From: Salinarchaeum sp.
GTDB lineage: Archaea > Halobacteriota > Halobacteria > Halobacteriales > QS-1-68-20
DNA: 37,580 nt
Assembly: GCA_007122875.1 (NCBI GenBank)
Contig: SKSS01000101.1
Span: 1 to 37,580, forward strand
Direction: 5' to 3'
Part shown: piece by piece, positions 11,742 to 16,095 of the stretch
Numbering within the stretch: position 1 is the first letter of the stretch
How the letters are laid out: each line of letters opens with the position of its first letter
Translations under genes and position numbers: made by a program
Notes under the pieces: model-generated
Told to the model about the DNA's origin: nothing
The model's database searches: none
What the model saw: only the letters and a program-made list of their open reading frames with translations

Positions 11742-11897
11742 GAAAGACTTATTGCTCGGATGGGCCACCTGCAAACTGATGCGTCGCGCATACACGAACC
11801 GCGGGTCCAGCACGGCCCGTGGACGCGTTCCGAGCGGAGTATCGAGCGAGTAGTCACTTCTGTGCGACGCGCCGTGAATTCCGATCTGCGAGCGGCG

Positions 11898-11964
11898 CGT
11901 CCGTCACCCGATCGATCGTCGACGCTGCGTCCGTCACCCGATCGATCGTCGACGCTGCGTCCGT
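11898..11964 (+). repeat. Tandem 30-bp repeat, 2.2 copies
   Basis: Two identical 30-nt units (11898-11927 and 11928-11957) begin CGTCCGTCACCCGATCGATC and end GTCGACGCTG; a third copy is cut off after CGTCCGT. Each unit contains the self-complementary CGATCGATCG. It lies about 40 nt before the ProRS start codon. Confidence 0.85.
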
Positions 11965-11992: not shown

Positions 11993-11998
11993 GGAGGT
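11993..11998 (+). promoter_or_regulatory. Shine-Dalgarno sequence that decides the ProRS start
   Basis: GGAGGT, a full match to the anti-Shine-Dalgarno core, ends 7 nt before the GTG at 12006. It favours that start over the GTG at 11997. Confidence 0.65.
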
Positions 11999-12005
11999 GG
12001 TTGCC

Positions 12006-13283
12006 GTGCGGCGTAGCGACCTCTTCCTCCCCGCCACCAGGGAGACACGCGGTGCGGGGACGGAGACGACCAAACTCCTCGTCCGGGCCGGACTCGTCCG
12101 AGCGTTCGGGAGCGGTCTGTGGGGGTATACGCCCGCCGGGGTTCGCGTCCGTCGGAAGCTGATCCGACGACTCCGCGCCGGCATGGACGCCGTTGGCGGA
12201 CAGCGGGTCCGACTTCCCGGTCTCCAGCCCCGACGACGGTGGGACGAGAGCGGGCGCTGGGCAAACTTCGAGGGCGAGATGTTCACCCTCGAAAACCGGG
12301 ACGGGAAGGACATCTGTCTCGCGCCCAGCCACGAGGAGGGAATGGTTCACCTCGTCGACGGCCGCATCCGGTCCTACGACGACCTCCCCCTGTTGCTGTA
12401 TCAGATCGAGTCGAAGTTCCGTGACGACCATGCTCGAAACGGACTCGTCCGCTGCAAGGAGTTCACCATGAAGGACGCCTACAGCTTCCACGCCGACGAG
12501 GACTGTCTCGATCGGACATACGGCGAGGTTCGAGCGGCGTACGAACGCATCTTCGCGGATCTCGGCCTCTCGTTCGCGATCGTCGAGGCCGACGCCGGGG
12601 TGATGGGCGGCTCGAACTCCGAGGAGTTCGTCGCCCCCGTCGAGAACGGGTCCAACCGGCTGGTCTACTGTACGGCCAACGGCTGTCGGTTCGGCGTCAC
12701 GGACGAACACGCCGATTTCGACCGCTACACCGTGGCTGACTCCTGTCCCGAGTGTGGAACCCTCCTCGCCGAATCAGCCGGAACCGAACTCGGCCACGTG
12801 TTCCAGCTTGGAACGCGCTACTCGGACGCGATGGGGCTCACGATCGACGACCGGGCGGGCCGCGAACTCCCCGTCCTGATGGGCAGTTACGGCATCGGCG
12901 TCGATCGGTTGCTCCAGACGCTCGTCCAGCAGGGAGGGATCGACCGCTGTCGGTGGCCCGTCACCGACTGGGGCTGTGTCGCGCCCTACCGCGCGGCCGT
13001 CGTCCCCGTTGGCTACGAGGGCGAGGTTCGCGAGGAGGCTGACCGTCTCCACAAACGGTGTGGTCCCGAGGACACCCTGCTGTTCGACGATCCCGAGCAG
13101 TCGGTCGGTGAACGCTTCGCCGAGAGCGAGTTGCTGGGCCTCCCCGCTACGATCGTCGTCGGAAACCAGTACCGCGAAACCGGTCTGGTCGACGTCGAGA
13201 CCCAGGACGGCCGAACCGAGACGGTCGATCCCGAGGCCGTCCCCGAGGTCGTCGAGCGGTTCGCTGCTGGAACCACCGGATAG
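12006..13283 (+). CDS. proS: Bacterial-type prolyl-tRNA synthetase lacking the editing (INS) domain
   Basis: A 425-residue class II aminoacyl-tRNA synthetase that should charge tRNA with proline. It is of the bacterial type, whereas archaea normally use the other (archaeal/eukaryotic) ProRS type. From the N-terminus it shows RRSDLFLPATRET, LQPRRRWDESGRW, the ATP/proline loop APSHEE (106-111), motif 2 with Phe138-Arg139-Asp140-Asp141 where bacterial enzymes usually read FRDE, KDAYSF (156-161), and motif 3 MGSYGIGVDRL (292-302). The anticodon-binding domain (about 330-425) is complete. The roughly 180-residue editing domain is absent. What remains is a short bridge with Cys222, Cys227, Cys247 and Cys250, matching cysteine motifs that flank the insertion in many bacterial enzymes. 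The start matches the bacterial N-terminus and has a Shine-Dalgarno sequence. Confidence 0.9.
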   Translation: MRRSDLFLPATRETRGAGTETTKLLVRAGLVRAFGSGLWGYTPAGVRVRRKLIRRLRAGMDAVGGQRVRLPGLQPRRRWDESGRWANFEGEMFTLENRDGKDICLAPSHEEGMVHLVDGRIRSYDDLPLLLYQIESKFRDDHARNGLVRCKEFTMKDAYSFHADEDCLDRTYGEVRAAYERIFADLGLSFAIVEADAGVMGGSNSEEFVAPVENGSNRLVYCTANGCRFGVTDEHADFDRYTVADSCPECGTLLAESAGTELGHVFQLGTRYSDAMGLTIDDRAGRELPVLMGSYGIGVDRLLQTLVQQGGIDRCRWPVTDWGCVAPYRAAVVPVGYEGEVREEADRLHKRCGPEDTLLFDDPEQSVGERFAESELLGLPATIVVGNQYRETGLVDVETQDGRTETVDPEAVPEVVERFAAGTTG

Positions 13284-13347: not shown

Positions 13348-14160
13348 ATGACCGACGAGCCGGGCGATCCAGCCGAGTCAGCCGACCCGGACCCGAGACG
13401 ACGTGTCGCCTCCCGGACGGACGATGAGTACGACGATACCGACGAATCCGGTTTCGATACGTCCGGCCGCAGCGACGACGGAGATACCGAATCCGGAAAC
13501 AGTAACACGGAACTCGAAGATGCCGACACGGAACCCGGAGACACTGACACGGGATCCGAAGAGCGTGATGCGGAACCTGAAAACGGCGAGACGAAACCCG
13601 ACGGCGCCGACGAGCGGGACGTACCCGAGGACGTGCAAACGTACGAGCGGTTCACGAAGGTCGACGGCGCGGAGTACGAGCGCGTCAACGAGTTCCTCCG
13701 CAACCGGACGCACATCACGGCCCGCGAGTGGGCCATCGCACGGCTCTGCTCGGATTTCCGCACGGAGACGGGCGTCGAGATGACCAAAATCGGCGAGAAC
13801 CTCCCGGAACTCGTCCCGTTCATGACCGACACGTACACCCCGCAGGCGGTCAATCAGGCGCGGGCCTCGTTCGAGGAGAAGATTCGGATGGCGGGTGCGA
13901 CGTTCCTCTACGGCGCGATGTGTGATTTCTTCACGGCCGAGGAACTCGACGACGTGATGTACGAGGCGACCGAGGTCGCGAAGTTCCTCCTCGAAGTCGA
14001 GGGCGTCGAACTCTCCGTCGAGGAGGAACTGGAGGCCGAAGAGCGCATCTCGACGGTGATGCGTGAGGTTCGGGAGGCGAGCCAGCAACTCCGAACCGCC
14101 GAGGAACTCGAACTCGACGGCTCCTGTCCGCACTGCGGGGAGGAACTCACGGACGACTAA
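13348..14160 (+). CDS. Conserved haloarchaeal protein with acidic repetitive N-terminus (DUF5806-like)
   Basis: A 270-residue protein of unknown function; I associate the family with DUF5806, from memory. Residues 1 to about 92 are disordered and extremely acidic, made of short imperfect D-T-E-x-G/D-A-E-P-type repeats that look like slippage expansion. The conserved part begins near VQTYERFTKVDGAEYERVNEFL and is mainly helical, with WAIARLCSDF and NLPELVPFM segments and a long charged helix at about 205-255. The C-terminus ends with a CPHCGEEL single CxxC pair. It is cytoplasmic. The frame is open further upstream, but that overlaps ProRS; CCTTTTG about 28 nt before the ATG at 13348 supports this start. 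It overlaps the convergent gene by 4 nt. Confidence 0.8.
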   Translation: MTDEPGDPAESADPDPRRRVASRTDDEYDDTDESGFDTSGRSDDGDTESGNSNTELEDADTEPGDTDTGSEERDAEPENGETKPDGADERDVPEDVQTYERFTKVDGAEYERVNEFLRNRTHITAREWAIARLCSDFRTETGVEMTKIGENLPELVPFMTDTYTPQAVNQARASFEEKIRMAGATFLYGAMCDFFTAEELDDVMYEATEVAKFLLEVEGVELSVEEELEAEERISTVMREVREASQQLRTAEELELDGSCPHCGEELTDD

Positions 14161-14762
14161 CGGGAGTCCGACCGATCGTCGTCCGACGTGTCCGGGTCGG
14201 CGTCATCGGACTCGGTTCGTTCGTCGTTCCTCGCCCGCCACCGTCGGCGCGCTTCGAGACCGCGTCGTCGTCGATCCGCCGCCGGATCTGCCTCAGGGTT
14301 GTGTCGATTGAGTGGTAAGAACGGCTCGGCGTTGTCGTGGACGAACGTCACCCGGTCGTCTCCCGACAGCGGGCGGATGTGCGTCCGCATCACGCCCTCC
14401 TGGCGGGCCCGGCGGAACATCGGCCGATCCCCGATCCACCGGTAGTACGCCGGGACGATCACGGCGACCTCCTCGTCGGGGTTCTCGATTGCGGTGACGT
14501 AGTAGATGATGGCGTCATCTCTCGCTTTGAACACCTGAAAGCGGTCGAAGTCGGCCGCGTCCGTGACGACCTCCTCGACGGCCGCGTACTCCTCACCGGG
14601 AACGACGACGGTCACCCCGAACTGGTCGTCGGTCCGCGCGGTCACGTCACCGGGGGTGACCGTCACGACCTCCCACCCCTCCGCGTCGTACTCCGTGGCG
14701 GTCGCCTCCGCGTCCTCGATCACGTCGCTCCACACGTCGCCGGGGGGGCTGTGAGCGTCCAT
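14157..14762 (-). CDS. Conserved haloarchaeal protein, paralogue of the 2068-2577 product
   Basis: A 201-residue protein of unknown function, related to the product of 2068-2577 by its order of motifs: EGWEVVTVTPGD, VTVVVPGEEY, FDRFQVFKARDD, VAVIVPAYYR and QEGVMRTHIRPL. The C-terminal 45 residues are extra and low in complexity, with an arginine-rich stretch (RRRGLEARRRWRARN) followed by an Asp/Ser/Thr tail. I start it at the ATG at 14762 (MDAHSPPGD) because the upstream in-frame sequence is basic and unlike the family. It is soluble and acidic apart from the arginine patch. It shares four bases with the convergent gene's stop and lies just downstream of pyrC on the same strand, with a 37-nt gap. 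Confidence 0.8.
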   Translation of the reverse strand: MDAHSPPGDVWSDVIEDAEATATEYDAEGWEVVTVTPGDVTARTDDQFGVTVVVPGEEYAAVEEVVTDAADFDRFQVFKARDDAIIYYVTAIENPDEEVAVIVPAYYRWIGDRPMFRRARQEGVMRTHIRPLSGDDRVTFVHDNAEPFLPLNRHNPEADPAADRRRRGLEARRRWRARNDERTESDDADPDTSDDDRSDSR

Positions 14763-14799
14763 GTGTCGATGAGGGTGGGGACCGTCGAAAAGGGTTGTC

Positions 14800-16095
14800 T
14801 TACCCGCGAACGTTCCGCCCGACCGCCTCGCCGAACCGCTCCTCGCCGTCACGGTCGTCGTAGACGATCCGCCCTCGAACGACCGTGAGTTCCGGGAAGA
14901 CGCCCGTCATCCCCTCGTAGGGCGTCCACCCGCACTTCGAGTGGAGATCCGATCCGCGAATCTCGCGGACGTTCTCCGGATCGACCAGCACGAAGTCGGC
15001 GTCCATTCCCGCTTCGATCCGCCCCTTGGTCGGGAGGTCGAACACGTCCGCCGGGTTCGTGGCCGTCAGATCACGGACCCGCTCCCAGGTCAGCCGGCCG
15101 TCACGGACCGCGGCGAGCAGCAGGGGGAGGGTCGTCTCCACGCCCGGAACGCCGCTCGGGGCCGCCGCGACCGCGGCCTCCTTCTCCGCTGTGAGGTGCG
15201 GAGCGTGATCGGAGGCGACGATGTCGACGGTGCCGTCTGCGACCCGCTCGAAGACGCCCTCGCGGCGCGCCTCACTTCGAAGTGGCGGGTTCATCTGGCC
15301 GAACGTCCCGAGGTCGTTGAGGTCGTCGCGAGAGAGAAATAGGTGGTGGGGACAGACCTCGCAGGTCGCGCCGTGCTCGACGGCCGCGTCGATCGCCTCC
15401 GGGGACGTGGTGTGAGCGACGTGCAGATCCGCACCCGCCTCCGTCGCGCGCTCGCAGGCGAGATCGATCGCGTCGACTTCCGCGCGGGCGGGTCGGTAGG
15501 CGCTCCAGGCGTCCGCGTCGGCATCCCGGCCGGTCCCGCTGCCGGCCGTTTCGAGGGCCGACTCGTCGAACAGCGCGTCGTCCTCGGCGTGGACGGTGAG
15601 GGTGAGATCCGCCTCTGCGGCCCGTTCGGCGGCGACGGAGAAGAGATCGGCGTCGATGCCCATCCCGCCGGTCGAATCCGCGAGGAACACCTCGCCGAGG
15701 GCGAACAGCGGGCGCGAGAGGAGGGTGTCGGGATCCCAGTCGGGAATCACGCCGCCGGAGATACCGTAGTCGACGAGCGACTCCTCGGCGACAGCGTCTT
15801 TCGCGTCGTAGCCCGCCCCGTCGATCGTGGGCGGATCGGTGTTGGGTTGGTCGACGATCGTGGTCACGCCGCCGGCCGCGGCCGAACGGCTGGCCGTCCC
15901 CCACGTCTCCTTGTGTGTGAACCCCGGCTCCCGGACGTGGACGTGCGCGTCGATCACCCCGGGAAGGAGGCGCTTTCCGGTCGCGTCGACGATTTCCTCC
16001 CCCGAGAGATTCTCTCCGACGGCCGCGATCCGGCCGTCCTCAACCGCCACGTCCCGGATCCGGCCACCCGCGAGGGTCGCGTTCCGAACGAGCAT
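14800..16095 (-). CDS. pyrC: Dihydroorotase
   Basis: This 431-residue zinc amidohydrolase closes carbamoyl aspartate to dihydroorotate in pyrimidine synthesis. The metal-binding DAHVHVREPG motif is at about 49-58 (His51 and His53), with GGVTTIVDQPNT, VHAEDD, VAHTTSPEA and VCPHHLF providing the expected barrel strands and histidines. The catalytic aspartate motif is ASDHAPH. A C-terminal composite beta-sandwich segment (GRIEAGMDADFVLVDP) completes the fold. Length and motifs match the long class I dihydroorotase. The start ATG at 16095 gives the usual MLVRNATL beginning. No other pyr gene is in the window. Confidence 0.95.
   Translation of the reverse strand: MLVRNATLAGGRIRDVAVEDGRIAAVGENLSGEEIVDATGKRLLPGVIDAHVHVREPGFTHKETWGTASRSAAAGGVTTIVDQPNTDPPTIDGAGYDAKDAVAEESLVDYGISGGVIPDWDPDTLLSRPLFALGEVFLADSTGGMGIDADLFSVAAERAAEADLTLTVHAEDDALFDESALETAGSGTGRDADADAWSAYRPARAEVDAIDLACERATEAGADLHVAHTTSPEAIDAAVEHGATCEVCPHHLFLSRDDLNDLGTFGQMNPPLRSEARREGVFERVADGTVDIVASDHAPHLTAEKEAAVAAAPSGVPGVETTLPLLLAAVRDGRLTWERVRDLTATNPADVFDLPTKGRIEAGMDADFVLVDPENVREIRGSDLHSKCGWTPYEGMTGVFPELTVVRGRIVYDDRDGEERFGEAVGRNVRG

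Follow-up and report, generated by a model that had tools for sequence, protein, structure and literature searches.

In a window of 37,580 nucleotides (the whole stretch of DNA that was analysed, from Salinarchaeum sp.) the gene proS2 encodes a second, bacterial-type prolyl-tRNA synthetase (ProRS), and upstream of it lies a conserved leader ORF with a hairpin and a CCG proline codon. Our reading is that proS2 is a conditional backup ProRS beside the archaeal ProRS, with the leader CCG sensing a shortage of Pro-tRNA, and we give this reading a probability of roughly 0.7. The sensing logic of the leader CCG is well supported; we infer that this CCG is the sensor codon and that proS2 goes up when Pro-tRNA falls. 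The earlier note on this locus, made from the sequence alone, described the protein correctly but missed both the upstream leader and the bias in proline codons.

The ORF of proS2 starts with GTG at position 12006, ends at 13283 and was read with 0 internal stops. The start is supported by a Shine-Dalgarno sequence, the spacing of which is equal in nearly all orthologs.

Positions 12006 to 13283, forward strand: proS2, bacterial-type prolyl-tRNA synthetase without INS, above the TIGR00409 cut-off, 425 amino acids.
Positions 11993 to 12000, forward strand: Shine-Dalgarno sequence GGAGGTGG of proS2, matching GGAGGTGA at 7 of 8 positions, 5 nt before the start codon.

Against the NCBIfam model for bacterial-type ProRS (TIGR00409) the protein scored 341.1 bits, with a cut-off of 306.7, and against the archaeal-type model TIGR00408 it reached 77 bits, below the cut-off of 437. 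Pfam detected the class II core (PF00587) and the HGTP anticodon domain (PF03129), so that the earlier assignment as a bacterial-type ProRS with both domains was confirmed. The class II motifs read FRDD in motif 2, APSHEE in the S-x-E loop and GSYGIG in motif 3. Neighbouring genes at 13348-14160 and 14157-14852 of the window encode DUF5806 and DUF7529, and further neighbours are ilvD and genes for a GHMP kinase, a TFS-type zinc-ribbon protein and a (dihydroorotase-like) amidohydrolase; no gene neighbourhood around proS2 was conserved across genera.

The alignment of the protein with solved bacterial ProRS breaks at the INS site, where residues ~226 to 234 of the query take the place of residues ~236 to 389 of the chain. 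In the alignments no haloarchaeal ortholog had an INS editing domain in the segment from motif 2 to motif 3. It had been claimed earlier that INS is missing between Cys222/Cys227 and Cys247/Cys250, and indeed all four cysteines are placed as described and the alignment breaks there.

Positions 12669 to 12758, forward strand: four-Cys ribbon (Cys222, 227, 247 and 250) at the INS insertion site, from alignment positions.

This ribbon is retained in 37 of 38 orthologs. In the INS-bearing ProRS of Paenibacillus and Nonomuraea equivalent Cys pairs flank INS on both sides, and we therefore concluded that INS was cut out from inside the ribbon. A free-standing YbaK/ProX-type editing gene (PF04073) is present in the window's assembly; as a trans-editing partner it was rejected, because the presence of PF04073 does not track that of proS2 across genomes.

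The window lies on contig C6 of a 1.9 Mb assembly (a MAG, 60% complete), whose contig C32 encodes an archaeal-type ProRS. The search for such an enzyme elsewhere in the genome, proposed as a check in the earlier note, thus showed that proS2 is not the only ProRS there and bore out the claim of a transferred second ProRS in a haloarchaeal host. Orthologs of proS2 were found in 37 of 394 haloarchaeal genomes (the window's included), patchily spread over 17 of 87 genera and with 52-72% identity; the objection that all haloarchaea might carry the same protein fails with this count. No proS2 was found in non-haloarchaeal Halobacteriota. The archaeal ProRS was also detected in all 37 carriers except G001 and G007, which belong to the same genus, are both 99% complete and contain the bacterial-type ProRS only; their other PF00587 proteins read as SerRS, ThrRS and GlyRS. 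Enzymes of this family are thus able to act as sole ProRS, and in this genus the bacterial-type ProRS replaced the archaeal one. The proS2 product is a real, second and sometimes sufficient ProRS.

In the tree that we built with the haloarchaeal sequences, a quick one with SH-aLRT support only and with few, long-branched bacterial outgroups, these sequences formed a single clade (support 100) with the sole-ProRS genus as sister to the remainder (98), and the remainder was split into two subclades. Descent of proS2 from one transferred bacterial-type enzyme, with loss of INS, is supported. The gene is often in decay across haloarchaea: Haladaptatus halobius has a truncated copy together with a plasmid fragment, the copy of Halolamina pelagica is frameshifted, and in G003 (L129) and G181 (L128) the leader is intact while proS2 has been shrunk by internal deletion to short start and end pieces, the scars of recent independent losses. 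Apart from the C-terminal fragment on the Haladaptatus halobius plasmid, no phage, plasmid or viral copies were found. The plasmid search also returned Clostridioides difficile records (H32-H40) with a bacterial ProRS gene on elements of ~100-150 kb.

Three features of the active site had been taken as hints of altered substrate use, namely Ser108, FRDD and RCKEF, and these residues are present as described. The G001 and G007 orthologs likewise have FRDD, the lysine within R-x-K-E/Q-F and the shorter motif-2 loop, and since they are common to the sole-ProRS genus they are compatible with ordinary prolylation; the suggested change in substrate use was not upheld. The motif-2 loop reads x-R-D-E-x-R-P-R-x-G in 8 of the 9 bacterial sequences compared, and R-D-D-H-(A/P)-R-N-G, with minor variants and one residue shorter, in the haloarchaeal enzymes. 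All tRNA-Pro genes that were read (GGG, CGG and UGG; from carriers, one non-carrier and the sole-ProRS genus) have G1:C72 and A73, whereas bacterial tRNA-Pro has C1:G72 (PMC10164551); on these genes a bacterial-type tRNA-Pro as partner of proS2 was rejected. The motif-2 loop of the haloarchaeal enzyme may thus have been remodelled to suit archaeal tRNA-Pro. The tRNA-Pro (UGG, GGG) of the sole-ProRS genus (L068, L069; G001, G007) is still of the archaeal type. In four carriers (L167-L169, L186) the D-loop of tRNA-Pro(GGG) has two bases fewer than its counterpart in the sole-ProRS genus or that of the CGG and UGG isoacceptors.

Upstream of proS2 we examined 38 leaders, made up of 34 carriers and four named loci. 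Among proS2 carriers only G001, G007 and G118 lack the leader element, and it is present in both subclades, which split anciently. In the window the following features were located.

Positions 11748 to 11753, forward strand: TATA-like promoter box CTTATT, the best hexamer, beginning 31 nt ahead of the leader ATG.
Positions 11779 to 11853, forward strand: leader ORF MRRAYTNRGSSTARGRVPSGVSSE followed by a stop, 24 codons, an in-frame uORF conserved in all 38 leaders.
Positions 11827 to 11832, forward strand: invariant GTT-CCG (Val-Pro) with the proposed sensor codon CCG, in 38 of 38 leaders.
Positions 11855 to 11861, forward strand: pyrimidine-rich motif ACTTCTG (CTGnTTCT-like), shortly past the sensor codon.

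In 30 of the 38 leaders a TATA-like box begins 29-34 nt ahead of the leader start. Leaderless transcripts are expected to have this spacing, so we took the leader ORF to be leaderless, as transcripts in haloarchaea usually are (PMC4983044). The leader ORF is 18-30 codons long across relatives and its stop lies 44-167 nt from the proS2 start codon (38 leaders). It starts with ATG in 36 and with GTG in two leaders, in every case in frame with GTT-CCG, and the leader region contains 39 in-frame versus 6 out-of-frame ATGs. The in-frame stop follows 3-9 codons from GTT (1-7 codons after Val-Pro), and the other two frames mostly run far longer before a stop. The C-terminal pattern of the ORF is (R/H)-G-(W/R)-V-P-(R/S), after which the stop is soon reached, and only one Pro codon is conserved. 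GTT is invariant even though it accounts for 7% of Val codons, and this invariance is a feature for which codon sensing does not account. Of the 38 leaders, 36 have a CTGnTTCT-like motif at a distance of 12-33 nt past GTTCCG, with 3.9 expected in shuffles; this pattern was fitted post hoc. A perfect 30-bp tandem repeat (GCGTCCGTCACCCGATCGATCGTCGACGCT, 2.3 copies) lies at 11897-11964 of the window, between the leader ORF and the proS2 Shine-Dalgarno sequence, and because of it the spacer between leader and proS2 is longer than in most relatives.

The leader ORF contains a hairpin that is part of a conserved RNA element.

Positions 11799 to 11822, forward strand: 9-bp hairpin within the leader ORF, arms 11799-11807 and 11814-11822, 6-nt loop.
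Positions 11797 to 11838, forward strand: conserved leader RNA element, covariance model R1, 59.3 bits, E 5e-11 in the genome.

Over 35 sequences 97.5% of the hairpin cells are paired and 22 cells are changed on both sides; none of 500 shuffles reached so high a covariation, and the signal was gone when the arms were slid. Two of the covarying pairs link the third position of one codon to the second position of another, so that the stem is maintained even where this entails Gly/Glu and Arg/His replacements in the peptide. When the 42-nt model was run over the 394 genomes, with 16 candidates scored per genome, 36 genomes gave a match of at least 42 bits, one match each, and these were all 34 leader-bearing carriers and the two deletion-scar genomes G003 and G181; every match lay ahead of proS2 or of its scar. 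Six weaker matches, scoring 30-33 bits and located in other genomes, are likely chance matches. Rfam gave no match to the leader at E up to 1. The hairpin loops vary, and an anticodon-like sequence is mostly missing in subclade B. A DNA operator in place of an RNA structure is unlikely, because the stem retains G-U pairs. The predicted exposure of the Shine-Dalgarno sequence was 0.32 in the free RNA and 0.33 when a stalled ribosome was placed over Val-Pro, which gave no support to a switch by sequestration, and an alternative hairpin of the 3' arm with CCGCG showed no covariation; no switch was found in these analyses. At 11814-11830 of the window GGCC-N9-GTTC has the spacing, counted from the 3' arm, that separates the anticodon stem from the T-loop GTTC in tRNA-Pro(CGG); this likeness is possibly chance, possibly mimicry.

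The proline codons of proS2 deviate strongly from those of the surrounding genes. Among the 461 Pro codons of 35 leader-bearing proS2 genes CCG occurs 14 times (3.0%), CCA 6 times (1.3%) and CCC 415 times, and the proS2 of the window uses CCC at all 17 of its Pro codons. In the neighbouring ORFs at the same loci CCG leads the Pro codons with 52.6% (2955/5614); these ORFs were an automatic selection of long, acidic, non-overlapping frames, some of them false. The three orthologs without leader contain CCG at 28 of 57 Pro codons (49%), against 49.6% in their neighbours; one of them, G118, is nested in the leader-bearing clade and has CCG at 7 of 16. The archaeal ProRS genes of three carriers have CCG at 34 of 83 Pro codons. 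When codon-frequency distances were compared by amino acid, Pro was the outlier with 0.59, followed by Ser with 0.22, and the Ser deviation was also seen in orthologs without leader. Per 1000 codons of leader-bearing proS2, CCG was counted 0.9 times in frame 0 and 57 and 38 times out of frame. An exhaustive search of two families yielded two hold-out carriers, G638 and G655, both intact and new, with leaders at 61.3 and 59.5 bits and leader ORFs that end in HGWVPRERD and HGWVPRRS, respectively, before the stop; CCG makes up 3 of 16 Pro codons in G638 and 0 of 11 in G655. The CCG depletion is in-frame, restricted to Pro and accompanies the leader.

According to selective-charging theory, leader codons are those whose isoacceptors empty first, while an isoacceptor that is amply supplied relative to the use of its codons keeps its charge (PMC1183508). 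A CCG in the leader together with a CCC/CCT body therefore fits a gene that is needed when Pro-tRNA is short. In the mechanism that we propose the proS2 mRNA would start at the leaderless leader ORF, and as long as charged tRNA-Pro(CGG) is plentiful the leader would be read through and proS2 would stay low. Upon a drop in Pro-tRNA, with ProRS inhibited or proline short, the ribosome would slow with CCG in its A site, just past the hairpin, and proS2 would then be made, the slowing being turned into expression either by transcription or by translation. The proS2 body, which uses CCC/CCT (tRNA-Pro GGG) and shuns CCG and CCA, would remain translatable when the other isoacceptors are empty. In nature proS2 may be switched on by inhibition of the archaeal ProRS, by scarcity of proline or by some other failure of ProRS1. 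The CTGnTTCT-like motif lies roughly where the polymerase would be ahead of a slowed ribosome, and control at the level of transcription may fairly be guessed from this. It speaks against the proposal that a single Pro codon is conserved, whereas classical attenuators have several, and that no RNA switch was found. Of the roles proposed earlier for the protein, the best fit is a backup or resistance copy, given a leader and a codon usage that suit expression during Pro-tRNA shortage.

The leader could instead be the site of autogenous control: ProRS2 or another RNA-binding protein would recognise the hairpin together with GUUCCG, which would act as operator or mimic a tRNA, and would repress its own translation, the ORF being incidental. 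E. coli ThrRS represses its own translation on the thrS mRNA in such a way. The covarying hairpin, GUU-CCG being invariant at the nucleotide level and the tRNA-like spacing of GGCC-N9-GTTC, which resembles the 3' half of tRNA-Pro, would all agree with a binding site. However, such a site predicts neither the in-frame start, the nearby stop and a TATA box placed as for a leaderless transcript nor the in-frame depletion of CCG in the gene body, and its loops would hardly be expected to vary and mostly to lack the anticodon-like sequence in subclade B; we consider autogenous control unlikely. A response to damage or loss of Pro isoacceptors, for example by a nuclease acting on tRNA-Pro CGG or UGG, with the codon bias as an escape, would explain why CCG and CCA are both avoided and why nearly only codons of tRNA-Pro(GGG) remain. 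Cut tRNAs would not, however, be restored by a second synthetase, and across genera proS2 has no linked neighbour at all, which makes this explanation improbable.

That proS2 is an ordinary redundant acquired copy, whose leader and codon bias have unrelated causes such as expression level or mutation bias, draws on its patchy spread and repeated decay, from which it is evidently dispensable alongside the archaeal ProRS. Against this stand the restriction of the bias to Pro codons in frame 0, its absence from the leaderless orthologs and from the archaeal ProRS genes checked, and the retention of the leader in two subclades that split anciently, and we regard it as very improbable. Least probable of all, with hardly any weight, is a ProRS of relaxed fidelity or one supplying Pro-tRNA to a dedicated pathway. 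The missing INS would suit such a role, but most of the active-site changes are shared with the sole-ProRS genus, and the window's assembly has its own YbaK-type editing protein. The neighbouring genes hold no conserved pathway and differ between genera, so the earlier suggestion of a Pro-tRNA supplier for another pathway finds no footing. A conditional backup ProRS under a Pro-tRNA-sensing leader thus remains our preferred reading.

Switches of the kind suggested here for proline starvation are known in bacteria and, as far as could be found, have not been described in archaea. If the proposal is true, proS2 would present a leader-peptide switch in a domain for which control by structured leaders had been considered atypical, codon usage would belong to the circuit, and both sides of selective-charging theory, the sensitive leader codon and the other isoacceptors that stay charged, would meet in one transcript. 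The orthologs that lost the leader have lost the codon bias too and provide natural controls, and proS2 would offer a genetically testable bacterial-type ProRS that works on archaeal tRNA-Pro. The proS2 product is an archaeal auxiliary synthetase, probably controlled by a leader peptide. We hold it somewhat more plausible than its opposite that it exemplifies haloarchaeal amino-acid attenuation, defined by a leaderless leader ORF, a single starvation-sensitive codon and an auxiliary synthetase purged of that codon.

Among known enzymes, the alphaproteobacterial ProRS (Rhodopseudomonas palustris 2i4l; Sinorhizobium, Paracoccus) resemble proS2 in having the bacterial-type core and the anticodon domain but no full INS. 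They are, however, housekeeping enzymes, are not the nearest relatives of proS2 in the tree and keep RPRFG in the motif-2 loop, and the Sinorhizobium enzyme is without the four-Cys ribbon. The ProRS of Paenibacillus and Nonomuraea share the core and the Cys pairs around the INS position with proS2, but they carry INS and have a motif-2 loop that is one residue longer. With regard to regulation, Firmicutes have T-box-controlled auxiliary synthetases, for example Bacillus thrZ, in which a backup enzyme is induced by uncharged tRNA; the T-box RNA reads the tRNA directly, whereas the proS2 leader is without any Rfam match. The nearest precedent is the Streptomyces gene for an auxiliary, antibiotic-resistant TrpRS under ribosome-mediated transcriptional attenuation (Vecchione and Sello 2010, cited in PMC4787780). 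It is reportedly induced when its tRNA is uncharged and has several Trp codons and a terminator in its leader. As with proS2, the synthetase is an extra one besides the housekeeping enzyme, and a short ORF containing a codon for its own amino acid precedes the gene. The proS2 system differs in being archaeal, in its leaderless leader ORF, in the single invariant Pro codon and in that no terminator was identified, and to this it adds a coding sequence that shuns the sensor codon.
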